A DNA stretch of 28,920 bases from a virus: IMG/VR virus record IMGVR_UViG_3300037010_000815, positions 1 to 28,920 of that record; one strand, written 5' to 3'. The position numbers were made by a program, and so were the translations under genes. Positions 11,143-28,920 of the stretch are shown in pieces (positions within the stretch are counted from its first letter, which is position 1; the number at the start of each line of letters is the position of its first letter). The notes under the pieces are model-generated. The model did no database searches. It was not told the origin of the DNA and saw only the letters and a program-made list of their open reading frames with translations.

Positions 11143-11616
11143 ATGAAGTACGCTGAAGTTCGTAACAAAATAAAATCAGGCGACTTGCTCGCGTGGGCAG
11201 GCACCTGTTTTCAGTGTCGCGTCGTGCGCGCATTCACCAATTCAACATACTCTCATGTGGGCGTGGCGTGGGTGATTGGCGGTCGCGTGTTCGTGCTAGA
11301 AGCGGTTACATCGGGTGTCAGAATTTACCCGCTATCACGCGAAATCCCATTTTACTTGCAACCTACTGGTGCTTTGTGGAATGACGAGGCTGAATCATTT
11401 GCTTTGAAACACGTCGGCGACAAGTACAGTCGTCTCGACGCAATCAAGACGTTTCTGCGCATGCCGATCAAAAACGATATGTGGCAATGTGCCGAATTTG
11501 CCCAGGCTGTTCTGAGTATGGCGAGCGTCAGACTGAATTGTGACGCGACGCCGGAAGAGGTGATGAAGGCCGCCGCGCGAGTCTGTGATACTGGTTTGGT
11601 TCTGGTTGATAACTAA
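11143..11616 (+). CDS. YiiX/LRAT-like permuted papain-fold enzyme
   Basis: 157 residues with the hallmarks of the YiiX/YebB (permuted NlpC/P60) group: SGDLLAW at 12-18, H38 in YSHVG, E53 in VLEAVTSGVRIYPL, and C116 in WQCAEF near the other end, so the His comes before the Cys. Members are amidases, peptidases or acyltransferases acting on wall peptides or lipids. Position just before the lysis genes suggests work on the cell envelope, but a virion or host-modifying role is equally open. GGAG lies nine bases before the ATG. No signal peptide is seen. The fold call is fairly firm; the substrate is unknown. Confidence 0.72.
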   Translation: MKYAEVRNKIKSGDLLAWAGTCFQCRVVRAFTNSTYSHVGVAWVIGGRVFVLEAVTSGVRIYPLSREIPFYLQPTGALWNDEAESFALKHVGDKYSRLDAIKTFLRMPIKNDMWQCAEFAQAVLSMASVRLNCDATPEEVMKAAARVCDTGLVLVDN

Positions 11617-16386: not shown

Positions 16387-16710
16387 ATGCAACAAGATCA
16401 AATTCGCGCCGACCAACAAGCCTATGCCCGTCAGGTCGAAGGAACACTTCATCGTCCTGCCGTAACGCGCAAACCTCTCAAGAGCGCAAATGCACCGAAG
16501 GGTCATGAGGCTTTTCTCAAGGCGCTAGAAGCGTCCGGTCAGATCGTTTACTTTGAAAAGGCCAGTAGCGGCGAGCGCGTGGTCGGCAAGATCAAAACAT
16601 CCGACAAGTACACCATCAGCGTCATAACCGAGGTCGGAACCCGCGTTCTGTTCAAGCATGACGTTTCTGAATTCTTCGCGCCGCGCCAAACGTCAGCCGA
16701 GACGAACTGA
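16387..16710 (+). CDS. Hfq-like (Sm-fold) RNA-binding protein
   Basis: 107 residues from the ATG at 16387, preceded by a perfect AAGGAGG (16374-16380) at six bases. After a basic, flexible N-terminus, residues 40-97 line up with Hfq: HEAFLKAL at 40-47 for the N-terminal helix, GKIKTSDKYTI at 67-77 for the first Sm motif (GQIESFDQFVI in E. coli), and RVLFKHDVS at 86-94 for the second Sm motif (MVYKHAIS). The K-H pair of the proximal RNA-binding face is kept. Hfq rings help small RNAs pair with messages. A phage copy could redirect host RNA control. One residue is inserted between the motifs. The N-terminal extension of about 40 residues is unusual. Confidence 0.7.
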   Translation: MQQDQIRADQQAYARQVEGTLHRPAVTRKPLKSANAPKGHEAFLKALEASGQIVYFEKASSGERVVGKIKTSDKYTISVITEVGTRVLFKHDVSEFFAPRQTSAETN

Positions 16711-16711
16711 T

Positions 16712-18169
16712 ATGAGCGTTATGTGTCCTGCGACGGTGGAAGAATCCGTCGTAAAAATGATTGGCGAAAGTTTCACTGATGCTGCTGCATTAACGAAAAC
16801 GGAAGCAGAAGTGGAGACAGTTGGTTTCTTCAGTATGGACGAAGGGTTTGACGCTGACTTTCAGACCAAGATCGCAGCATTTGCCTGTCGTGATGATGAG
16901 TTTATGCGTCGCGTGGCACACTTGCTCAAGCCAGATTACTTCGAGAATGCCGGTGAAGCCGCGCTGGTGAACATTGCTCTGCGTCACTTTGCTAAATACC
17001 GCTGTGTGCCGGATAACGTCTCGATGGCAGCGGCGATTCGTGAAGACGTTGCAGCAAAGATCATTCGCAAGGATGTGTTGCCGCTGGTCGTCGCGCAACG
17101 CAAGGTTATTTTGCATGACGCGCTGAGAAATCGCGAGTATGTCGAGGACAAGGTGGTTGAGTTCGTGAGACATCAGGCGGTAGGCGCAGCTCTGCTAAAG
17201 TCTGTTGATTTGCGCGATAGGCGGCAGTTCGACAAGATAACCGCACTGATGAAGACAGCTATCGACATCGGGCTAAATGAAGAAGGTGACGGCTACGATT
17301 ACGCCGCCCGCATCGGCGACAGAACGACAGAGCGTCTGGACAAAGTGTCAGGCAAGCGACCGCCGCAAGGCATCACAACCGGCATTGTCAAGATGGATGA
17401 AATGCTCTATCACCGGGGCTGGGGTCGCAAAGAGCTGGCGGCGATCATGGGGGCAGCGAAGGCCGGTAAGACGGCAAGTTTGATTAACTTCGCGCAGGCC
17501 GCGTCACTGGCCGGTTATAATGTCCTGTACGTCACGCTTGAGGTTGGCGCAGGTATTATTGCTGATCGCATGGACGCGAGTATTTCATCGACCATGATGA
17601 AGGAGCTGTCGGACAAGATTCACGGCGTTCGCGAAAAGGTTGAAGAGGCAATGGCGAAAGCTGGTCGTCTGATTATCCACGAATACGCATCTGGCACGAT
17701 GTCGCCCAACATGCTGCGAAAGCTGATTGAGCGCTACAAATCGCCAGGGCGCAATGTTGATGGATCTGTACGCCCGATCACCAAGTTCGATCTGATCGTG
17801 GTTGACTACGCTGACATCATGGCGCCCAACTACCGCACTCAGGACACCATCGAGAACTCAAAGTCGGTCTATGTGGATCTTCGTGCGATTGCATTCGAAG
17901 AGAATGTAGCAATGCTGACAGCTACACAAGCCAACCGCGAGGGTCATAAAGCGGCGGTGGTGAAAGCGGAACACGTCGCAGAGGACTTCAACAAGGTTCG
18001 GACGGTCGACCTGATGATCTCCATCAATAAGACGGAAGAAGAGGCCCGTGATGGCATTGCGCGACTGTATTTCGCCGCCTCACGCAATCAGGAGTCCGGT
18101 TTTACCATAGTCATTAAGCAGAATTTGGCATGTATGCAGTTTGTTACATCCGTCCTGCGAATCGAGTAG
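16712..18169 (+). CDS. Replicative DNA helicase, DnaB/RecA-fold
   Basis: 485 residues from the ATG at 16712, one base after the Hfq-like stop; the frame is open upstream to 16658 but that overlaps the previous gene. An N-terminal helical domain (about 1-190) precedes a RecA-type core: Walker A GAAKAGKT at 247-254, VLYVTLEVG at 271-279, Walker B LIVVDYADIM at 361-370, and the TATQANREG motif at 393-401 that senses nucleotide or DNA in DnaB-type helicases. It would unwind the fork with the primase encoded just downstream. The phage presumably also uses its own polymerase (28032). I see no separate helicase loader. Confidence 0.9.
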   Translation: MSVMCPATVEESVVKMIGESFTDAAALTKTEAEVETVGFFSMDEGFDADFQTKIAAFACRDDEFMRRVAHLLKPDYFENAGEAALVNIALRHFAKYRCVPDNVSMAAAIREDVAAKIIRKDVLPLVVAQRKVILHDALRNREYVEDKVVEFVRHQAVGAALLKSVDLRDRRQFDKITALMKTAIDIGLNEEGDGYDYAARIGDRTTERLDKVSGKRPPQGITTGIVKMDEMLYHRGWGRKELAAIMGAAKAGKTASLINFAQAASLAGYNVLYVTLEVGAGIIADRMDASISSTMMKELSDKIHGVREKVEEAMAKAGRLIIHEYASGTMSPNMLRKLIERYKSPGRNVDGSVRPITKFDLIVVDYADIMAPNYRTQDTIENSKSVYVDLRAIAFEENVAMLTATQANREGHKAAVVKAEHVAEDFNKVRTVDLMISINKTEEEARDGIARLYFAASRNQESGFTIVIKQNLACMQFVTSVLRIE

Positions 18170-18221: not shown

Positions 18222-18410
18222 ATGGAATCGAAAGTTATCGAAGATGCAATCGCCAAGGTTAGAGGCAACGGGTTCTACAGTGGCGCAACTGAGCGGCGTC
18301 TACGTCGCATTGTTGCCAACTTGAGAGTCTGCGGCATCAGTTGTGATCTGATGATCGCTGAGATAATTATGGACTTCTGGGCAACGGTTAGCGTTGAATA
18401 CGATGAATGA
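18222..18410 (+). CDS. Small protein between helicase and primase, unknown
   Basis: 62 residues from the ATG at 18222, with AAAGGGA at 18209-18215 seven bases upstream. The frame is open further upstream but that part overlaps the helicase. The sequence is helical and mixed in charge (GATERRLRRIVANLRVCGIS near 22-41) with no motif. It overlaps the primase start by eight bases, so it is probably co-translated with it. A helicase-primase linker or loader role would fit the position but nothing in the sequence proves it. Confidence 0.68.
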   Translation: MESKVIEDAIAKVRGNGFYSGATERRLRRIVANLRVCGISCDLMIAEIIMDFWATVSVEYDE

Positions 18411-19476
18411 AGATTTGGGTGAAATTCTTGAATCTATTGATGTCGAGTATTGGCTTGATAGGGAAGGTGTCGATTATAAGAAGACGCGAGGCGCCCGTGG
18501 GCTTCAGGCAAACGTTAAAGAATGTCCATGCTGCGGAAATTCAAACTGGAAAGTGTATATAGGACTAGATACAGGGCTTGGAAACTGTTTCGTTTGCGAG
18601 AAGAAATTTAATCTCTGGAGCTTCATACGCTCCAGCTTGGGTACGCTTTCCAATCGTGAGGTCATCGAGCATATCAAGACGGTGGCGCGTGAGCAGGGCT
18701 GGCGACCGGCGCGAATAAAGCCCGTTGCTGTAAATTTGAAAACCGATCTGATACTGCCGGCGTCAGAGGTGTTGCCGATCAACGGGCGTAATTTGAAGTA
18801 CCTGGAAAATCGCAGTATTACGCTCGACATCGCCAAGTATTTCAGTATGCGCTTCTCAATGAATGGCGTTTTCAAGTACAGGGATGAGGAGGGCAGAAAT
18901 CGTGTTCAAGACTATTCGAAAAGGATCATTCTTCCAGTCTTTGACCTTGATGGGGATTTGGTCAGTTTTCAGGGCCGGGACATTACTGGCAACGCAGAGA
19001 AAAAGTACCTATTCCCGCCGGGTTTCGCTTCGACAGGCGCTCACCTCTACAACGGTCAGAACGCGCATGGCGCGAAAGATATAGTAATAGGGGAAGGCGC
19101 ATTCGACGTGGCGGCAACCAAGATCGCGCTCGATGGTCAGTCTGAGCTGCGAAGCGTTGTGCCTGTTGGCTCGTTCGGCAAGCACTTATCTCACGGCGAC
19201 GACGAAAGTCAGTTAGACAAACTCTTGCGCTTGCAAGAGGGCGGTTTGGAGCGCATCACGATCATGTGGGACTCAGAAAAGGCAGCATTGGAGGCGGCGG
19301 CCGAGACGGGTCTGCTGCTTCGCAAGTACGGATTCATCGCGCGAATCGCGGTGTTGCCAAAAGATCGCGACCCGAACGAAGTGGCGCCAAGCGTGGTGCG
19401 TGATGCGTATTGGAAGGCTGAGGTAGTCAACGAGAGTGTCGCGATGCGCCTGCGTCTGGCAAAAAGAATTGCTTAG
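18403..19476 (+). CDS. DNA primase with zinc finger and TOPRIM domain
   Basis: 357 residues. A CHC2-like zinc finger is formed by C41-x2-C44 and C62-x2-C65. The TOPRIM core has E231 in IVIGEGAFDVAATK (227-240) and D290 in ITIMWDSEKAA (285-295); DPNE at 323-326 is a typical primase tail motif. It makes the RNA primers for lagging-strand synthesis. The ATG at 18403 overlaps the small upstream gene; a TTG at 18394 is possible but unlikely. No helicase domain is fused (unlike T7 gp4), which fits the separate helicase gene. After its stop lies a 100-base control region. Confidence 0.92.
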   Translation: MNEDLGEILESIDVEYWLDREGVDYKKTRGARGLQANVKECPCCGNSNWKVYIGLDTGLGNCFVCEKKFNLWSFIRSSLGTLSNREVIEHIKTVAREQGWRPARIKPVAVNLKTDLILPASEVLPINGRNLKYLENRSITLDIAKYFSMRFSMNGVFKYRDEEGRNRVQDYSKRIILPVFDLDGDLVSFQGRDITGNAEKKYLFPPGFASTGAHLYNGQNAHGAKDIVIGEGAFDVAATKIALDGQSELRSVVPVGSFGKHLSHGDDESQLDKLLRLQEGGLERITIMWDSEKAALEAAAETGLLLRKYGFIARIAVLPKDRDPNEVAPSVVRDAYWKAEVVNESVAMRLRLAKRIA

Positions 19477-20747: not shown

Positions 20748-21086
20748 ATGAGTGAGCAAACGCAAGAAAACAAACGGAGTCTGGTTGAGGCCAACCTTGA
20801 CGAATTTAACGTCAATGTCAGTAAGGCATTGGTGATGATGTCCAAACAAAGTCAAGCCTTGTTGGAAGAGGGCGACGCGCCTAACGCCGCGTCTATCGTC
20901 GCGGTGGCGCTGGCTGCTGCACTGACGGCGGCAGACTTAGTGACAACACTGGCGGTTAGCGTTCAAAATGATGCGGTCATTGATTTAATGTTGGAGGATG
21001 TCATGAAAGACATGAAGAGTCGCGCACACACTGGCTTTGACCGCTTCAAGGAAAAACTCGCGACGACGAAAGCGGAGCCGGCGTAA
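20748..21086 (+). CDS. Unknown alanine-rich helical protein
   Basis: 112 residues with AAGGAGA before the ATG. It is predicted almost all helical, with an alanine-rich centre (SIVAVALAAALTAADLVTTL, about 49-68) that is amphipathic rather than a convincing membrane helix, and a basic C-terminus. The stop overlaps the ligase ATG by one base, implying coupled translation with the ligase. AAGTCA at 20743-20748 abuts the ATG and is part of a weak match to the recurring palindrome. No family is recognised. Confidence 0.75.
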   Translation: MSEQTQENKRSLVEANLDEFNVNVSKALVMMSKQSQALLEEGDAPNAASIVAVALAAALTAADLVTTLAVSVQNDAVIDLMLEDVMKDMKSRAHTGFDRFKEKLATTKAEPA

Positions 21087-22462
21087 TGAACTCAAGCGAA
21101 ATTTATGCTGCTATCGAGCGCATCGCCAGCACAGCGAGCAAGAATGAGAAGGAGCTGCTAGTCAAACAGTTCAGCGCCTTTCCGAGCTTTGTTCGCGTTC
21201 TTGAGTATGCCTACAATCCGTTCAAGACTTACGGCGTCGTTCCAGAAAACCCGCGCGGCAAATGGGCGCAAGAAGGCGATGGGATTGAATTTGACGACAA
21301 GACCTGGAAGATTCTCGACGCCCTGATTGCGCGAAGTCTCACAGGCGCAGCCGCGCGGGCCGCTATCGAGGCTGAGTTCAAGCGCCTGACTGAAGATTCA
21401 GCCGAATTGCTTTATCGCATCGTCAAGAAGGATCTTCGCGCAGGTTTCTCTGAATCGACTTGCAATAAGGCGGTCAAGGGTTTGATTCCAGACTTCCCCT
21501 ACATGCGCTGCTCCTTGACCAAAGACGTCGACCTCGCTGCTTGGCCGTGGGAGGATGGCGTGTTCAGCCAAGAGAAGGCCGACGGCATGTTCGCCAATGT
21601 CGATCACGAATACGGCGGTCTGGTGCGAATCACGTCACGTCAGGGTTCCGAGTTCTCTATTGAGAAGTTCGAGACGCTGGCGAACGAGGTTCGCGCACGT
21701 CTAGCAGAAGGTTGCCAGAATCACGGCGAGATTGTCGTGCTGCGTGATGGTGTGGTGTGTGAGCGTCAGATCGGCAATGGCATTCTGAACAGCGTGTTGA
21801 GCGGCGGTGACTTTGCCGAGAATGAAAAGCCGATGTACTTTGTCTGGGATCAAATCCCGCTGAATGCCGTCGTAACGAAGGGTAGGTACAGGGTCGCCTA
21901 CCGTCAACGCATTACGGGCGTAATAAAGCAATTGAAGGCGGTGCCTGGCAGCTCTATTGCGCTGATTCCGACTAAGATCGTGCGCTCCTTGTCCGATGCG
22001 CTCGCGCATTACCGCGAATTGCTGACGAGTGGTAAAGAAGGCACGGTAATCAAACATCCCGAAGCTATATGGAGGGATGGCACCAGCAAGGAGCAGATCA
22101 AGCTCAAGTTGGAAGTGGATGTTGACCTTAAAATTGTCGGCATTGTTTCGGGTAGTCCAGGTACTAAGACAGAAGGCCGAGCCGGTTCATTTACATGCGT
22201 GACGAGTTGCGGCCAGCTTCAGGTGAACGTGGCCGTCAAGAACGAGAGACTCCGTGACAGGGTAGATGCTAATCCGAGTGACTACATTGGTCGCATCATC
22301 GTTGTGCGGGCCAATTCGATTCTGCCTCCATCCGAAAGCAATGAGTTCCACTCACTGTTTCTGCCGCGCATGGCTGAAGGCGATTATCGCGTCGATAAGA
22401 CTGAGCCAGATAGTCTGCAACGGGTTCGCGATCAGTTTGAATCTGCCGTGAGGGCCGCATAA
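21086..22462 (+). CDS. lig: ATP-dependent DNA ligase
   Basis: 458 residues. The adenylation core has motif I E-K164-A-D-G (the lysine that carries AMP), motif III with E215 in NHGEIVVL, motif IV EGTVIKHP (318-325) and motif V IKLKLE with K339 and K341, followed by an OB-fold region (VDLKIVGIVSGSPGT). An N-terminal helical part (about 1-150) matches the DNA-binding part of T4-like ligases. It seals nicks in replicated DNA using ATP, independent of the host's NAD-dependent enzyme. The ATG overlaps the preceding stop and the next gene again overlaps by one base. Confidence 0.93.
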   Translation: MNSSEIYAAIERIASTASKNEKELLVKQFSAFPSFVRVLEYAYNPFKTYGVVPENPRGKWAQEGDGIEFDDKTWKILDALIARSLTGAAARAAIEAEFKRLTEDSAELLYRIVKKDLRAGFSESTCNKAVKGLIPDFPYMRCSLTKDVDLAAWPWEDGVFSQEKADGMFANVDHEYGGLVRITSRQGSEFSIEKFETLANEVRARLAEGCQNHGEIVVLRDGVVCERQIGNGILNSVLSGGDFAENEKPMYFVWDQIPLNAVVTKGRYRVAYRQRITGVIKQLKAVPGSSIALIPTKIVRSLSDALAHYRELLTSGKEGTVIKHPEAIWRDGTSKEQIKLKLEVDVDLKIVGIVSGSPGTKTEGRAGSFTCVTSCGQLQVNVAVKNERLRDRVDANPSDYIGRIIVVRANSILPPSESNEFHSLFLPRMAEGDYRVDKTEPDSLQRVRDQFESAVRAA

Positions 22463-23131: not shown

Positions 23132-25123
23132 ATGAATGAACGTGTAATGTTGCTTCGCGATGCGGTTGTGAAAATAACTCAAATGCTTTCTGGCAAGGGG
23201 ATCACGGTAACTCAGCGTGGAATTAACGCTTATGTGAAATGCGATCACAAGGGGCGTCCGACCGTTGTCAATCTGCCATACCTGCCGGATAACGTCACTG
23301 AAGAATTGTGCATGGCAATTCAAGGTTTCTTGGATCACGAGGTCGCGCGCATCATGTTTTCGGACTTCACGTTGATCGGAGAAGCTGAAAAGATCGGCGC
23401 TAAGTCGATGCTCAATATGCTCGAAGATGCACGTATCGAAAAGGCGATGACGCAGCGCTTCACAGGTTCGGGCCATAACCTCTCTGTCACTGGCAAGTTC
23501 TTTCTCGACAAATATAGCACGCCAATGATGCAAGAAGCCGCAGCCGCCGGTGATGCTAATAAGGTGATCGCCGTGTTGATGGTGCCGCTTATTCGCGCAA
23601 TGGCCGGTCAGTTCGTCTTTAAGGAGTACATGAAAGACAAGATGTATATCGTTCAAGGCGTCTATGACAAGATTGCCGACCTGGAGCCGCAAATCGAAGC
23701 GGCAAGCTCGACGCAAGCCTGTCTTGACCTGGCTAAAGAAATCGAAAGTCGTCTGCGTTCCGGCGAAAATAGTAAGGGCGAGAAGTCTTCTGATAAAGAG
23801 GGTGACGACGATGGTAAAGATGGTAAAGATGAGGGCGAAGCCAAGACCAGCAAGGGCAAGTCAAAGAAGGGCGAGAAGAAGTCTAAAGACAAGAAGGGCG
23901 CTTCTAAGTCCGAAGAGACTGAAGAGTCTGAGTCTGAGTCCGAAGCTGAAGCGAAACCGGATAAGAAGTCCGATGAAAAGGGCGAGGGCGAGAGTAAGAA
24001 GTCCGAAAAGAAAGAGGATGAAAGCGAAAAAGAAGACGCCGGTGAAGGCGACGGTGAAGGCGACGGTGGTGGCGATGGCGAAGGCGACGGCGAAGGTGCG
24101 CAAGGCACTAAATTCGAAACGGGCGATACTGGAGCTGTATGGACCGAAATCGACAAGGAGAACAAGAATGGCTTTGATAGTGCTCTGAGCAGCATTATTT
24201 CCAACGCCGCATCAGTCGCGGCAAAAGAGTCCTCATATCTGGTCTACACCAAAGAGGGTGATGTCGTCGAGCCGCTCAAGATTGGCAGCGGATACGATTC
24301 AACCATGTTAGTCGAACTCTCCGACAAGGTTGACCACATGGTCGGTCCGCTTCAAAAGGATTTGGAACGCGCCATTGCCGCGCGTTCGATGGCGACATGG
24401 GAAGCGGGTCGTCGCTCTGGTCGACTGCATGCCGCAAACCTCGCGCGTCTCGCGGTAGATGATGGTCGCGTATTTCGTAGGCGCCAGAAATCCACGAGCA
24501 AGGATGTGGCTGTCGAGCTTGTCGTCGATGCCTCTGGCTCGATGAGAGGCGCAAAAGTTCACCTGGCTACGCAAGCTGCGTATGCCTTGTCGTCCGTGCT
24601 TGAGCGCATCGGCATTTCGAACGAGGTGATCTGCTTCACCACGGGTCAGCCAGCCGTCGATTATGAGACACTCAACGCGGAAACACGGAAGATTGGGCGG
24701 TCATTTACTCGCACCGAAAGTCTCTACATGCCGATTCTCAAGGGCTTTAACGAGCGTCTTAAAACGGACGTGAAGGAGCGTTTCGGCTGGTTGCCAAACT
24801 CGCGCATCTTGCGCAATAACATTGACGGCGAATGTCTCGAAGTGGCCGCTAGACGTCTGCTTGCCCGCCGCGAAGCTGGCAAGGTGATGATTGTGCTGTC
24901 TGATGGCGCCCCAAACGCGAACGGTGACACGTATACACTCGCCACACACTTGAAAAAGGTGGTTGGAGACATTGCTAAGACAGGTATCAATATCGTCGGC
25001 ATCGGCATCATGACGGATGAAGTGCGAAAGTTCTATCCAAAGAACTTGGTCATCAACAATGTCAGCGAATTGCCGGATCGTGTCGTCCGTGAACTGAAGC
25101 ACCTTCTATTAACGCAAGGCTAA
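23132..25123 (+). CDS. CobT-like protein with VWA (MIDAS) domain
   Basis: 663 residues. The N-terminal domain (1-205) contains LDHEVARIMFSDF (68-80) and LEDARIEKAM, as in CobT-type proteins. Residues about 210-322 are an extreme low-complexity linker of K, E, S, D and G. The C-terminal VWA domain has the metal site D466-A-S-G-S-M, then NNIDGECLEVAARRLLARRE, VLSDGAPNANGD and GIGIMTDEVRKFYPKN, closely following the CobT pattern. In cobaltochelatase, CobT works with the AAA+ CobS; the gene at 25276 is its CobS-like partner. No CobN is in the window, so cobalt insertion is doubtful; a remodelling machine of the MoxR/VWA type is more likely. GAGGGGAAATA precedes the ATG. Confidence 0.85.
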   Translation: MNERVMLLRDAVVKITQMLSGKGITVTQRGINAYVKCDHKGRPTVVNLPYLPDNVTEELCMAIQGFLDHEVARIMFSDFTLIGEAEKIGAKSMLNMLEDARIEKAMTQRFTGSGHNLSVTGKFFLDKYSTPMMQEAAAAGDANKVIAVLMVPLIRAMAGQFVFKEYMKDKMYIVQGVYDKIADLEPQIEAASSTQACLDLAKEIESRLRSGENSKGEKSSDKEGDDDGKDGKDEGEAKTSKGKSKKGEKKSKDKKGASKSEETEESESESEAEAKPDKKSDEKGEGESKKSEKKEDESEKEDAGEGDGEGDGGGDGEGDGEGAQGTKFETGDTGAVWTEIDKENKNGFDSALSSIISNAASVAAKESSYLVYTKEGDVVEPLKIGSGYDSTMLVELSDKVDHMVGPLQKDLERAIAARSMATWEAGRRSGRLHAANLARLAVDDGRVFRRRQKSTSKDVAVELVVDASGSMRGAKVHLATQAAYALSSVLERIGISNEVICFTTGQPAVDYETLNAETRKIGRSFTRTESLYMPILKGFNERLKTDVKERFGWLPNSRILRNNIDGECLEVAARRLLARREAGKVMIVLSDGAPNANGDTYTLATHLKKVVGDIAKTGINIVGIGIMTDEVRKFYPKNLVINNVSELPDRVVRELKHLLLTQG

Positions 25124-25176
25124 CAAGAGGCAGGCTATCAACAAAACGCTTTCGGTTTAGACAATAGGCAATCTGT

Positions 25177-25215
25177 GAGGATAAGTCATCAGTGACTTGT
25201 GTTTCCTGATGACTT
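25177..25215. promoter_or_regulatory. Palindromic element, copy F, overlapping a 10-pair hairpin
   Basis: A perfect AAGTCA-TCAG-TGACTT (25183-25198). Its left part AAGTCATCAG also pairs with CTGATGACTT (25206-25215) as a perfect ten-pair stem with a 13-base loop, so there are effectively three half-sites. The 33 bases from 25177 resemble copy E at 19486. There is no good -10 box. It lies in the 150-base gap between the CobT-like and CobS-like genes, about 60 bases before the latter. Confidence 0.6.
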
Positions 25216-25235
25216 TCTTTAATATCTGTTCTGTC

Positions 25236-25260
25236 GCAGCAATGCTGCATTTTAAGCTTT
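25236..25260 (+). terminator. Weak hairpin with T-rich tail in the CobT-CobS gap
   Basis: GCAGC-AAT-GCTGC (25236-25248) is followed by ATTTTAAGCTTTTT. The five-pair stem with a three-base loop is a short terminator or attenuator candidate. It sits close to the CobS-like ribosome site, so a role in translation is as likely. Confidence 0.3.
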
Positions 25261-25275
25261 TTCAAGGAGGTAATG

Positions 25276-26451
25276 ATGACCGACAAAATAACTTGCCAAT
25301 TGTGCAATGCTCAAATTTATTCCGTGCAGTTGCACCTCAAGAATGACCATCCCGAAGAAACGTTGAAGGGTTATATCGCCAAGTTTCCCGAAGCGCCGTT
25401 AATGTCCGAAATGGCAAAGCAAAAACTCGCAGAAAAACGCGCCGTCAAAGCTGTATCAGAAGAGCGCATGCTGGAAATGGCTGGCACCGCCGCGTCTGTA
25501 ACCAAACTGATACCGAGTGGTTCGGTAATCAAGAAGGCGCTGCATGAAGTCTTTAACTTGGGCAACGTTAAGGCCGCTAAGTCCAGCAAGGGCGACCCCA
25601 TCCTCATTTCCGTGATTACATCGGGCGATTTCCCCGACATGGTGCCGGCGGCATCTGATGACTACGTGTATGATATCGACGAACTAAAGAATGTGATCCT
25701 GGCGCTGGAATTGAACATTCCTTGCTACGTCTGGGGCCACAAGGGTTCGGGCAAGTCTGAACTGTTTGAGCAGATTGCGGCGCGTACCGGGCGTGAGTTT
25801 ATGCGCGTTCAGCACACGGTCAACACAGAAGAAAGCCACATTGTTGGTCAGTGGACCGTGAAGGGCGGTCATACCGTGTTCGAACTAGGGCCGCTGCCGT
25901 TGGCGATGATTAATGGTTGGATGTATAGCGCTGACGAATACGACTTCATGCTGCCGTCCGTCTCTTCTGTCTATCAGGCCGTTCTTGAAGGTAAGCCATT
26001 GATGATTAAAGAGGCTGATGCCGCGAACCGCATCATCAAGCCGCACCCGAACTTTCGTTTTGTGGCGACGGGCAACACCAACGGCTCTGGTGACGAGACT
26101 GGGTTGTATCAAGGCACCAACATTCAGAATGCGGCCAACTACGACCGCTTCGGCATGGTGATCCACAAGCAATACATGAAGAAAGCCGCCGAGTCGCAGA
26201 TCCTTCAAAACCGTGTCGGTCTGGTCAAAGAAGACGCCGACAAGATGGTTGAGTTTGCGGGCTTGGTGCGCGAAGCATACGACGGCGCTAAAATCAGCGA
26301 CGTGATTTCTCCGCGTACTTTAATCTATGCCGCAAAGATCGGCGTCAAGCGCGGCAGCTTTCGTCAGGGCATTACGTTGTCCTTCATCAACAAGCTGTCC
26401 AAGATCGACCGCGAGGTCTGTGATGGCTTGGCGCAGAGAATCTTTGGCTGA
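25276..26451 (+). CDS. CobS-like AAA+ ATPase with N-terminal zinc finger
   Basis: 391 residues from the second of two adjacent ATGs (25273 and 25276); AAGGAGG at 25264-25270 is five bases from the second and only two from the first. An N-terminal C-x2-C, H-x4-H finger (CQLCNAQIYSVQLHLKNDH) is followed by a linker. The AAA+ core has Walker A GHKGSGKS (154-161), Walker B with D210-E211 (YSADEYDF), sensor 1 ATGNTN (264-269) and a RFGM box. This is the pattern of phage CobS-like and MoxR-type ATPases. Paired with the VWA gene upstream it should form a ring that remodels a protein target. The target is unknown. Confidence 0.88.
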   Translation: MTDKITCQLCNAQIYSVQLHLKNDHPEETLKGYIAKFPEAPLMSEMAKQKLAEKRAVKAVSEERMLEMAGTAASVTKLIPSGSVIKKALHEVFNLGNVKAAKSSKGDPILISVITSGDFPDMVPAASDDYVYDIDELKNVILALELNIPCYVWGHKGSGKSELFEQIAARTGREFMRVQHTVNTEESHIVGQWTVKGGHTVFELGPLPLAMINGWMYSADEYDFMLPSVSSVYQAVLEGKPLMIKEADAANRIIKPHPNFRFVATGNTNGSGDETGLYQGTNIQNAANYDRFGMVIHKQYMKKAAESQILQNRVGLVKEDADKMVEFAGLVREAYDGAKISDVISPRTLIYAAKIGVKRGSFRQGITLSFINKLSKIDREVCDGLAQRIFG

Positions 26452-26463
26452 TCGGGGGTCACA

Positions 26464-27114
26464 GTGGATCGCAGTAATTTTGACCGATTCTACGCCAACA
26501 ATACCGGCTTGATTCATACTGTGGCTCGCAAGGGCTTTCGCAGACTTCAAGCGATTGGGGCGTCTATTGAATATGAGGATGTGGTGCAGGAATTGACCGA
26601 AGTGTTCATCAAGTCCTTCGACCGCTTTGATGAGGCAAGTGGGAACAGGTTTTCTTCATACTTTGTGCCGGCAGCTTACCGCAAGGTCAATAGTATCGCG
26701 GAAGACTACGAAAAAGAACGGATTGAATTGAAGATTCATTCGTTTGAGGAAATGAACGCCAGGTTGAATGACGGCAACCACATTGAAGAAACTATATGCA
26801 GCGGCATTTCGTCTGTAGAGAATCAGATTGACGCTGGTCGTCTTGCGGTCAGAATCTTGGGGGACTTGTCGCCACTTGCGTCGATGATCGCGCAGATGGC
26901 TATTGACCCGCCGGAGTTCATGGAGCGAGAGTTTTCTGCGGCACAGGCACATGCGGAATACGCCCGTGGCGTTGGCGTAGAGCTTCGCGCTCGTGGCTCG
27001 CTGAACCTATCGTTCGTGTGTTCTGCGCTGGAGAGGGCCGATGTGTTACCAGCTTCAGTCATTCGCTCTGCAAAGAGGGAAGTAATTAAGGTGGTCAAGA
27101 GGAATGTGATATGA
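26464..27114 (+). CDS. Sigma-70 region 2-like factor
   Basis: 216 residues from GTG at 26464, with GGGGGT a few bases upstream. Residues 36-80 (YEDVVQELTEVFIKSFDRFD, then NRFSSYFVPAAYRKV) follow sigma-70 region 2, which binds the RNA polymerase clamp and melts the -10 box. No convincing region 4 is seen; the C-terminal part (about 140-216) is helical and basic at its end. It may be a divergent phage sigma factor that directs host polymerase to phage promoters, or a sigma-like decoy. It follows the CobS-like gene by 12 bases and overlaps the next gene by four. Confidence 0.68.
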   Translation: MDRSNFDRFYANNTGLIHTVARKGFRRLQAIGASIEYEDVVQELTEVFIKSFDRFDEASGNRFSSYFVPAAYRKVNSIAEDYEKERIELKIHSFEEMNARLNDGNHIEETICSGISSVENQIDAGRLAVRILGDLSPLASMIAQMAIDPPEFMEREFSAAQAHAEYARGVGVELRARGSLNLSFVCSALERADVLPASVIRSAKREVIKVVKRNVI

Positions 27115-27771: not shown

Positions 27772-28035
27772 ATGGGTTACGAGACGAAGATTGTGCGGCA
27801 GAGTTTGCCGTCGGGCACGTATTATCCAGCGCTGATGGGCGGAGTGCCTTCGCCAATGGTGGATGGTATTCATAAGATACCACTGTCGTCGCCAGATGAA
27901 CCTGGCGACTGGCGATTTCGCGAAATGCACATCATGCCGGCGATGCAATACAGCACCTCGCCAGGAGCGCTAACGTCGACAGTATTGCCGTATGAATGCT
28001 TAGTAATCTGGGAAAAATATAAGGAAGAAGAATGA
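27772..28035 (+). CDS. Small protein before the polymerase, unknown
   Basis: 87 residues from the ATG at 27772, one base after the previous stop; the frame is open upstream to 27712 but inside the preceding gene. The sequence is rich in proline, tyrosine and glycine (GTYYPALMGGVPSPMVDG near 15-32) and looks beta-rich, with no motif. It overlaps the polymerase start by four bases, so it is co-translated with it. Function unknown. Confidence 0.68.
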   Translation: MGYETKIVRQSLPSGTYYPALMGGVPSPMVDGIHKIPLSSPDEPGDWRFREMHIMPAMQYSTSPGALTSTVLPYECLVIWEKYKEEE

Positions 28036-28920
28036 ACATAAATCACGCACTGTCCGTAAGAAGCGACTTCAGCATCGGCGAATCGCTGTTGCAATTGGAT
28101 CACATCATCGAGAAGGCGAAGGAATTTGGTTACGAGTCCGTCGCTCTGGTGGATACAATGTCGCTTCACGGCATGGTGGACTTCTCAAACAAGGCCAAAA
28201 AAGCGGGCATTAAGCCAATCATCGGCTGTCGTCTGTGGGTCTACGACGATCCAACTTATCGCAAGCCATCGAAGGCATCGGGCGAAAAGGAAAAGCCTAA
28301 TCCCTTCTACGCGCTCAAGGTTTACGCTGTCGACGAGACTGGCGTAAAGTCCTTACTCAAGCTGCTGTCGCGCGCCTTGACGCCGGAATACTTCTACTAT
28401 CATGCCCGCTGTGGCTTGGATGATGTACTGGCGCTGGAGGGCGTTGCGGTATCGACTGGCGATATGTTTGGTCTGTTTCATCACGATGACCATCTGGCGA
28501 TTCTTAAAAAGCTCGGCTCAAAGTTTGGTTGGGACAAGACGTTCGTGGAGCTAGTGCCGATCAACACACCACTGTTCGACACGTTGAATGCAAAGGCGAT
28601 TCAGGCCGCCACTGACGTGAATGCGAAGACGCTGGTGACTTATCCGACGCTCTACAAAGAGCGTGACGATGCCGACACGCTCGAAGTTCTAAATTGTATC
28701 ACCACGAACACGCAAATGAGCGTCGCTTATCGCCCAAAGCAGTTCGTCAAGGATTTTGCATTCGACAAGCCAGAAGACCTGCTTGAGCGCGTCAAAGAGG
28801 CGGCCAAGCGCGTCTCAGTCTGGAACAAAGTTTCAAGTCCGGCACATTGGGCGAATGGCGTCAAAAACATCGAAGTGCTGGCGGGCATGTGCAACTATGA
28901 ATTCAAGAAGCAGGAAGTGT
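28032..28920 (+). CDS. dnaE: DNA polymerase III alpha subunit (DnaE-like), N-terminal part
   Basis: The frame opens at ATG 28032 (GGAAGAAG just upstream) and runs off the window after 296 residues. The start follows the PHP domain of bacterial DnaE: LSVRSDFSIGE, a helix, ALVDTMSLHGMVDFSNKAKK and AGIKPIIGCRLWVY. This family is the replicative polymerase of bacteria; a phage copy would replicate phage DNA with the helicase, primase and ligase encoded upstream. The usual H-x-H of an active PHP site is V-R-S here and the T-D-H motif reads V-D-T, so the proofreading metal site is probably lost, as in E. coli DnaE. The catalytic palm lies beyond the window. Confidence 0.9.
   Translation, partial: MNINHALSVRSDFSIGESLLQLDHIIEKAKEFGYESVALVDTMSLHGMVDFSNKAKKAGIKPIIGCRLWVYDDPTYRKPSKASGEKEKPNPFYALKVYAVDETGVKSLLKLLSRALTPEYFYYHARCGLDDVLALEGVAVSTGDMFGLFHHDDHLAILKKLGSKFGWDKTFVELVPINTPLFDTLNAKAIQAATDVNAKTLVTYPTLYKERDDADTLEVLNCITTNTQMSVAYRPKQFVKDFAFDKPEDLLERVKEAAKRVSVWNKVSSPAHWANGVKNIEVLAGMCNYEFKKQEV

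Follow-up and report, generated by a model that had tools for sequence, protein, structure and literature searches.

We find that a CobT-like gene and a CobS-like gene, carried side by side on a viral DNA fragment, probably encode a phage MoxR-type AAA+/VWA remodeling machine that serves phage DNA replication, and not a cobalt chelatase. The parts of this reading differ in firmness. That the pair is not a cobalt chelatase is very probable, and that it is a protein-remodeling machine is likely. The further proposal that the target of the machine lies in DNA replication is plausible, falling just short of evenly balanced. The source of the pair is a linear fragment, the whole of a 28,920-base IMG/VR record, and this entire stretch is referred to below as the window.

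The gene pair and its motifs

The two genes and the main elements of their VWA, linker, and AAA+ parts are the following.

23132..25123, + strand: CobT-like protein, 663 aa, with an N-terminal gluzincin-like domain, a charged linker, and a C-terminal VWA/MIDAS domain
23765..24127, + strand: E/K/G/D/S-rich linker, residues 212-332, delimited by composition
24470..25111, + strand: VWA domain, residues 447-660 (PF11775, 2.5e-41; structural matches to MDN1 and NorD)
24527..24541, + strand: MIDAS motif D466-A-S-G-S470, invariant in 90/90 relatives
25273..26451, + strand: CobS-like AAA+ protein, 392 aa, of the MoxR/AAA_5 type with CbbQ_C
25294..25350, + strand: C2H2-like zinc-finger motif C8, C11, H21, H26 at the AAA+ N terminus, from the motif and relatives
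25735..25758, + strand: Walker A GHKGSGKS, residues 155-162 (G155, G158, and K161 in 81/81 relatives; G160 in 80/81)
25933..25938, + strand: Walker B D221-E222 (81/81 relatives)
26146..26148, + strand: candidate arginine finger R292 (81/81 relatives)

Both genes are real, and a preliminary description of this DNA had placed them at exactly these positions. The CobS-like gene adjoins the CobT-like gene in all 84 nonredundant loci (84/84). The gene order is T-S in 85 loci, mostly of phages, and S-T in 28 loci, mostly cellular. When this copy is compared with its relative L003, the dN/dS of the CobT-like protein is 0.10 overall; by part, it is 0.05 in the N-terminal domain, 0.08 in the VWA domain, and 0.06 in CobS, against 0.42 in the linker. 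The pair is under strong purifying selection, and its function is kept, as follows from the low values in these three parts relative to the linker.

The architecture is that of a MoxR-type pair: an AAA_5/MoxR-like ATPase whose Walker A, Walker B, and arginine finger are all intact stands next to a VWA partner with an intact MIDAS. The MIDAS motif, first recognized as D466-x-S-x-S, reads D466-A-S468-G-S470. In structure comparisons, the VWA part resembles the MIDAS domain of MDN1/Rea1 (Z 20.2, rmsd 3.2, 211 aligned) and the VWA domain of NorQ-NorD (Z 18.2, rmsd 3.9, 215 aligned), with MDN1/Rea1 and NorD ranking above integrin and other VWA domains among the matches listed. The sequence of the CobS-like protein matches cobaltochelatase CobS, Midasin (3e-28), CbbQ, and NorQ. 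The linker, initially put at roughly 110 residues rich in K/E/S/D/G, has 121 aa (212-332), 87% of them E/K/G/D/S, and its length varies among near-identical relatives, that of L006 being ~83 residues shorter in a protein with 94% identity elsewhere. The N-terminal zinc finger ascribed to the AAA+ protein corresponds to a real C2H2-like motif with finger spacing, weakly matched by Pfam zf-C2H2 (0.021). C8 is kept in 81/81 relatives and H21 in 77/81, and only C8 is universal. The finger as such is not, because C11 is Asp in 17/81 relatives.

A position in replication modules

The neighbors of the pair in the window are the following.

16658-18169, + strand: DnaB-like helicase, from profile matches, upstream of the pair
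18394-19476, + strand: DnaG-like primase, from profile matches, upstream of the pair
21086..22462, + strand: ATP-dependent DNA ligase (phrog_114, 1.4e-102), upstream of the pair
26464..27114, + strand: sigma-70 region 2 protein (PF04542, 1.9e-5), directly downstream of the pair
28032..28919, + strand: N-terminal part of DNA polymerase III alpha, DnaE (PHP domain, 1.9e-20), running off the window

The pair had been said to sit among replication and transcription genes, and this is correct, with DnaB, DnaG, and ligase upstream and sigma-70 and polymerase III alpha downstream. DnaE lies at most 6 kb downstream of the pair in 72 of 75 nonredundant loci, a count that reflects in part shared descent of gene order within one phage lineage and not 72 independent events. 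Large-genome phage records that carry CobT number 30, and they coincide exactly with the 30 phage records whose DnaE is closest. In cyanophages and in Ochrobactrum phage OC, the pair is found between gp46/47 and the gp45 clamp plus clamp loader, and in Zobellviridae it is near the polymerase and the primase/helicase. The pairs of CRP-810 and L103 are exceptions and are not beside DnaE. Overall, the pair is tied to DNA-replication genes in more than a thousand phages and phage-plasmids. Marine cyanophages have it among their core genes, hundreds of phage-plasmids carry it, and a CobT relative occurs in 988 plasmid records, mostly of Klebsiella, Escherichia, Acinetobacter, and Enterobacter. Our literature search found no phage-plasmid study naming these genes. 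A tree of CobS has long-branch problems in the ICP2, Syn19, and Staphylococcus rows and is used for shallow groupings only.

These contexts bear on the possible targets. The preliminary description preferred a remodeling machine acting on host or virion targets to cofactor synthesis. The machine is supported by the absences of CobN (see below) and by Midasin/Rea1 and NorD as top structural matches. Host or virion targets have weaker support than replication proteins, because several phage groups that are not related to each other keep the pair locked to genes of the replicative polymerase or of the clamp. A role as a virion-assembly chaperone, with or without proteolytic processing of structural proteins, has been proposed for the pairs of MoxR and a vWA-metallopeptidase in group 2.2 jumbo phages, by reference to how an archaeal two-tailed virus assembles its tails (PMC7824862). 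We consider such a role unlikely here, as no capsid or tail assembly genes were found beside the pair in the contexts examined, where it sits in replication or transcription modules instead. We give no better chances to the pair being an early takeover factor that remodels or removes host RNA polymerase, nucleoid, or defense proteins. A sigma-70 region 2 gene does follow the pair directly in 48 of the 75 relatives with enough flank, and bacterial conflict systems also use MoxR-vWA pairs (PMC7159879). However, PADLOC returned no match, which speaks against a known defense system, and the pair keeps one phage genomic position across very different hosts, which argues for a phage-encoded partner.

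A gluzincin-like N-terminal domain with a degenerate site

What the preliminary description overlooked is the metallopeptidase-like character of roughly the first 210 residues of the VWA protein, which carry HExxH in most relatives.

23132..23767, + strand: N-terminal domain, residues 1-212 of the CobT-like protein, made up mainly of helices plus a three-stranded sheet
23336..23350, + strand: degenerate HExxH, here HEVAR, residues 69-73 (HEVAH in close kin)
23414..23440, + strand: N95-x-x-E98-D99-x-x-I-E103 helix (the "glutamate helix"), with a candidate third metal ligand (E98 and E103 in 89/90)

A full-length AlphaFold model from 12 sequences was poor (pLDDT 57.6) and gives no packing of the CobT-like domains, which is why a separate prediction was made for the N-terminal domain. 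This AlphaFold2 model has a mean pLDDT of 92 (77 sequences) and places helices at 57-76 and 91-109. Zinc metallopeptidases dominate its top structural matches, which are weak (Z 4-5), the best Z of 5.1 being under the tool's own trust level. Foldseek against the PDB gave nothing at E<=0.001 (best E 0.37), and related viral structure models match the domain. We call it gluzincin-like on the basis of the HExxH motif, the order of the helices, and these weak structural matches. The ED-x-x-IE region also has a weak match to AcrIIA26 (E 0.0046).

The HExxH with its downstream glutamates is found in 84/90 nonredundant relatives, and HExxH is present in seven phages and phage-plasmids that were checked, among them Kyanoviridae and Zobellviridae; it was not found in the aligned cellular CobTs. 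In the present copy, the gluzincin arrangement of an HExxH on a helix followed by a Glu helix is incomplete, the second His being missing from HEVAR. The codon for the last residue of the motif is CGC (Arg) here and in L001, and CAC in L003, L004, and L006. A sequencing error is unlikely: L001 is a second contig, identical over the shared stretch (10025/10026), with the same codon. L001 and this contig may represent one virus population.

In five of the six degenerate copies both His are lost together. E70 is kept even in copies without both His, which is at odds with a purely catalytic role of this residue. Judging from the sequences, the site has been lost at least four times, with the MIDAS and ATPase motifs kept. 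The best reading is that a peptidase-like activity is dispensable in some lineages, and we see the chances as even that the motif marks a peptidase working, now or once, in the relatives. Quite unlikely, in our opinion, is a reading in which the N-terminal domain works as a protease by itself and the AAA+ and VWA parts do no more than regulate it. The frequency of HExxH and the joint loss of the His pair, expected of metal ligands, would suit such a protease, but the losses are independent, next to no copy has lost its MIDAS or ATPase motifs, and the N-terminal dN/dS is still 0.05 without the site.

Homology to cobaltochelatase without CobN

The likeness to the two small cobaltochelatase subunits is genuine homology, as had been suspected: the VWA protein matches Pfam CobT_C (PF11775, 2.5e-41) and CobT (3.1e-10), and the AAA+ protein matches AAA_5 (3.8e-15) and CbbQ_C (1.1e-7). 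The reported absence of CobN (PF02514) from the window is borne out, although the window is a 28.9-kb fragment and this absence proves little. Thirteen related phage records (mostly 103-120 kb) are likewise without it (0/13), and it was found in none of six enteric genomes that have the pair (0/6) and in 0/119 among Enterobacteriaceae. For these relatives, homologs of CobS and CobT occur without CobN in phage or host. The phage proteins score 123.9 of 759 bits with TIGR01651 (CobT) and 122.5 of 558.6 bits with TIGR01650 (CobS), below both cut-offs. As a discriminator, the NCBIfam CobT equivalog cut-off is too strict, since gammaproteobacterial CobTs from CobN-bearing genomes miss it too (329-364 bits).

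The published idea that viral CobST of tailed viruses recruits host CobN (PMC8651126), raising cobalamin synthesis, can draw on the genuine homology, including that to solved cobaltochelatase subunits, and on the CobN of several alphaproteobacterial genomes with the pair, but it is very unlikely: it is contradicted, at least in enteric hosts, because the pair is kept there, on hundreds of plasmids, in hosts without CobN, and the scores are far under the NCBIfam cut-offs, of which that for CobT is not diagnostic.

How the machine could work

In a remodeling machine serving replication, the CobS-like protein would form a ring, on which the N-terminal domain of the CobT-like protein would dock. 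The linker would let the MIDAS domain seize the target via an acidic residue, by analogy with Midasin/Rea1 and NorQD, and ATP hydrolysis would pull the captured target apart or out of its complex. The intact HExxH of most relatives could additionally clip the target; with its broken HExxH, the machine of this virus would remodel without cutting. The likeliest targets would be proteins that take part in replication, or in transcription coupled to it, whether of the phage or of the host. More speculatively, the AAA+ ring, the MIDAS arm, and an on-board gluzincin protease could disassemble or clip the replisome, e.g., exchanging host polymerase parts for phage ones, the protease being repeatedly lost and the N terminus of cellular CobT being a dead peptidase of shared ancestry; we regard this version as possible but doubtful.

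In viral ecology, the pair is routinely tallied among the "auxiliary metabolic genes" for vitamin B12. If it is a replication-linked remodeling machine, this classification is mistaken, and phages of laboratory E. coli K-12 would offer a way to test a phage function that is widespread but unexplained. If the replisome-disassembly version is true, such a machine is widespread under the wrong name "CobST."

Comparison with known systems

The kind of system is already known, as phage "cobST" and as MoxR-vWA pairs, both unexplained. With cobaltochelatase CobS/CobT (PDB 9uka and related entries), the pair shares whole-length homology of both subunits and the combination of AAA+ plus VWA with a charged linker. 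The comparison of profiles between the phage CobT-like protein and cellular CobTs gives a probability of 100, and the PDB matches to the subunits reach 2.8e-27 (CobT) and 1.2e-31 (CobS). The phage pair differs in lacking CobN, in missing the TIGR01650 and TIGR01651 cut-offs, and in its mostly T-S order, the cellular one being mostly S-T; it adds HExxH in the CobT-like protein and the N-terminal zinc-finger motif in the AAA+ protein. Midasin/Rea1 and NorQD/CbbQO provide the closest solved VWA structures and AAA+ sequence relatives. Midasin consists of one giant chain and works on ribosome precursors, and the substrates of NorQD and CbbQO are metalloenzymes and rubisco; to our knowledge, none of them is viral or has a gluzincin-like domain. 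Gluzincins (the minigluzincins jannalysin and abylysin, M48, BlaR1) share the succession of a helix, three strands, an HExxH helix, and a glutamate helix, but they resemble the domain weakly (Z 4-5), and the second His is missing from this copy.

Among viruses, the "cobST" cluster is the same pair in tailed viruses (PMC8651126), and cobS is listed as cyanophage core (PMC3037559). These genes, including the cyanophage cobS and "peptidase," were earlier read as cobalamin genes, unlike here. The name "peptidase" has been called a mistake (PMC8651126), yet the "peptidase" beside cobS in Syn19 and S-RIM32 has HEVGH, an N-x-x-ED-x-R-x-E motif, and a MIDAS, and the HExxH motif suggests that the name has a basis. 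Finally, the MoxR plus vWA-metallopeptidase pairs of jumbo phages (PMC7824862) likewise combine an AAA+ protein with a VWA protein bearing an N-terminal metallopeptidase-like domain. Those pairs, of group 2.2, were assigned to virion assembly, whereas the pair described here belongs to the replication modules of 100-120 kb phages and has, in this copy, a broken site.

The pair in the window and the search for CobN

The coordinates that the preliminary description had assigned to the two genes matched exactly on re-examination:

23132-25123, + strand: CobT-like VWA protein, 663 aa (CobT_C and CobT in Pfam; phrog_1576 in PHROGs, no function)
25273-26451, + strand: CobS-like AAA+ protein, 392 aa (AAA_5 and CbbQ_C in Pfam; phrog_249 in PHROGs, "porphyrin biosynthesis")

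We also confirmed the features it had described: the MIDAS (D466-x-S-x-S), kept in 90/90 aligned relatives, the charged linker (about 120 residues, rich in E/K/G/D/S), and the N-terminal zinc-finger motif of the AAA+ protein. Elsewhere in the window, a 157-aa protein of phrog_1128 ("enoyl-CoA hydratase/carnithine racemase-like") lies between the tail fibre and PhoH genes (11143-11616).

The window is the entire 28,920-base linear virus record, and its lack of CobN, the large cobaltochelatase subunit (PF02514), carries little weight alone. CobN had no match in 13 records from relatives, including 8 from named phages whose genomes are annotated as complete. Among the pair-bearing bacterial genomes searched, it was present in several alphaproteobacteria and absent from the three Xenorhabdus genomes and from the Buttiauxella, Morganella, and Kluyvera genomes; a wider search of Enterobacteriaceae, to which Buttiauxella belongs, gave 0/119. 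Yet CobT relatives occur on 988 plasmid records, mostly from Klebsiella, Escherichia, Acinetobacter, and Enterobacter. These plasmids are typically of about 105 to 115 kb, and their size and hosts agree with those of the published SSU5-type and AB phage-plasmids (PMC12977533). Hence, the proposal that viral CobST borrows the host CobN (PMC8651126) cannot hold in enteric hosts, to which we restrict this claim.

Chromosomal CobS/CobT-like pairs without detectable CobN were found in Vibrio (loci L139, L142, L144, L146-L148, L156) and in Lachnospiraceae and relatives (L150, L153-L155, L158, L171), extending such pairs beyond phages. The one Lachnospiraceae CobT-like protein that we compared with the CobT family barely matches it. 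The Halomonas sulfidaeris chromosome has a broken CobT-like gene (L112:8001-10325; match spanning more than 2 kb, best open frame 340 aa), probably a decaying prophage.

A peptidase-like site that was lost repeatedly

The alignment of relatives revealed the motif LDHEVAH in the N-terminal domain (residues 1-212), followed by N-x-x-ED-x-x-IE. Among 90 CobT-like proteins (90% non-redundancy), the HExxH site (residues 69-73) is intact in 84, E70 is kept in all, and E98 and E103 in 89. HExxH was also found in 7/7 further proteins checked singly, including those of Kyanoviridae, Zobellviridae, Roseobacter phage CRP-810, and an Acinetobacter phage-plasmid. At this position, the aligned cellular CobTs carry different residues, although most keep the equivalents of E98 and E103. 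The profile stretch LNxxEDxxIE...G...N (window 23414-23440, residues 95-103) weakly matches the anti-CRISPR AcrIIA26 (E 0.0046), possibly by chance.

The six degenerate sites are HEVAR (the window), SEISK (two), SEVSK, REVST, and QEVAK. Both histidines are gone together in five of them, as expected for paired metal ligands. On the CobS tree, the losses represent at least four separate events: the window's sister L003 is intact, the degenerate L091 adjoins the intact L039, and the intact L093 separates L022 from the nickie group. HEVAR arises by one base (CAC to CGC), and contig L001 has the same codon.

Modelled alone (77 sequences; pLDDT 92.2, pTM 0.87), the N-terminal domain starts with a helix and three strands. 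The HExxH helix (57-76) comes next and is separated by a short helix from the E98/E103 helix (91-109). The minimal gluzincin fold has its elements in this order. No PDB match was significant by itself (best Z 5.1), and zinc-metallopeptidase-type folds (jannalysin/selecase, abylysin, BlaR1, ZMPSTE24, M1 peptidases, ArdC) account for the majority of the fourteen best VIA rows. A gluzincin fold is thus probable, not proven. In the full model, the VWA part matches NorD and the MIDAS domains of Midasin/Rea1. The CobS and CobT chains of PDB entry 21vu match in sequence the C-terminal part of CobS and the CobT N-terminal domain. We infer that these parts bind each other, in which case the AAA+ ring would carry the gluzincin-like domain.

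Relative to L003, whose CobT is 97% identical, dN/dS is low in the N-terminal domain (0.05), the VWA part (0.08), and CobS (0.06) and higher in the linker (0.42). The N-terminal domain is under strong constraint despite its broken metal site, and therefore probably has another role, e.g., structural docking. Alternatively, the loss of HExxH could be very recent. Linker length varies among near-identical CobT-like proteins, as is typical of a flexible tether.

Genomic context and function

CobS adjoins CobT in 84/84 non-redundant loci, and DNA polymerase III alpha (DnaE) lies at most 6 kb downstream in 72/75 (exceptions: ICP2, CRP-810, and locus L103). CobT is borne by 30 large-genome phage records, and these are precisely the 30 whose DnaE is closest; the pair is therefore core to that lineage. 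Since many DnaE-linked loci represent one lineage, we gave more weight to other contexts. In T4-like cyanophages and Ochrobactrum phage OC, the pair has the gp46/47 nuclease on one side and the gp45/44/62 clamp system on the other. It lies near polymerase and primase/helicase genes in Zobellviridae, and near one end of CRP-810, among small genes without known function. In Staphylococcus Kayvirus A5W (L179:6704-8679) and Mycobacterium phage Baudelaire (L180:1657-3799), the partner of the CobS-like AAA+ protein is a DUF7192 protein in place of a recognised VWA protein, and it may be a degenerate form of the latter.

We conclude that the pair is probably a protein-remodelling machine. The CobS-like protein would form the ATPase ring, the N-terminal domain of the CobT-like protein would dock, the linker would act as a flexible tether, and the MIDAS would be the capture arm; the peptidase-like site would be ancestral and lost in the window virus. 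The preliminary description had proposed remodelling of host or virion targets. The absence of CobN from the 13 phage records and from enteric hosts favors remodelling; as for the target, gene position, and this only, makes replication proteins our best guess. The main rivals are virion assembly and host takeover. The former was proposed for the MoxR/vWA-metallopeptidase pairs of jumbo phages (PMC7824862), but in no context examined does the pair lie with genes for head or tail assembly.

The literature already describes cobST clusters in phages, cobS with a "peptidase" in cyanophages, and MoxR/vWA-peptidase pairs in jumbo phages. Our analysis adds that these appear to be a single architecture whose usual home is the replication module. 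It also adds that enteric hosts do not fit the CobN hypothesis and that the peptidase-like motif, although general, has been lost repeatedly.
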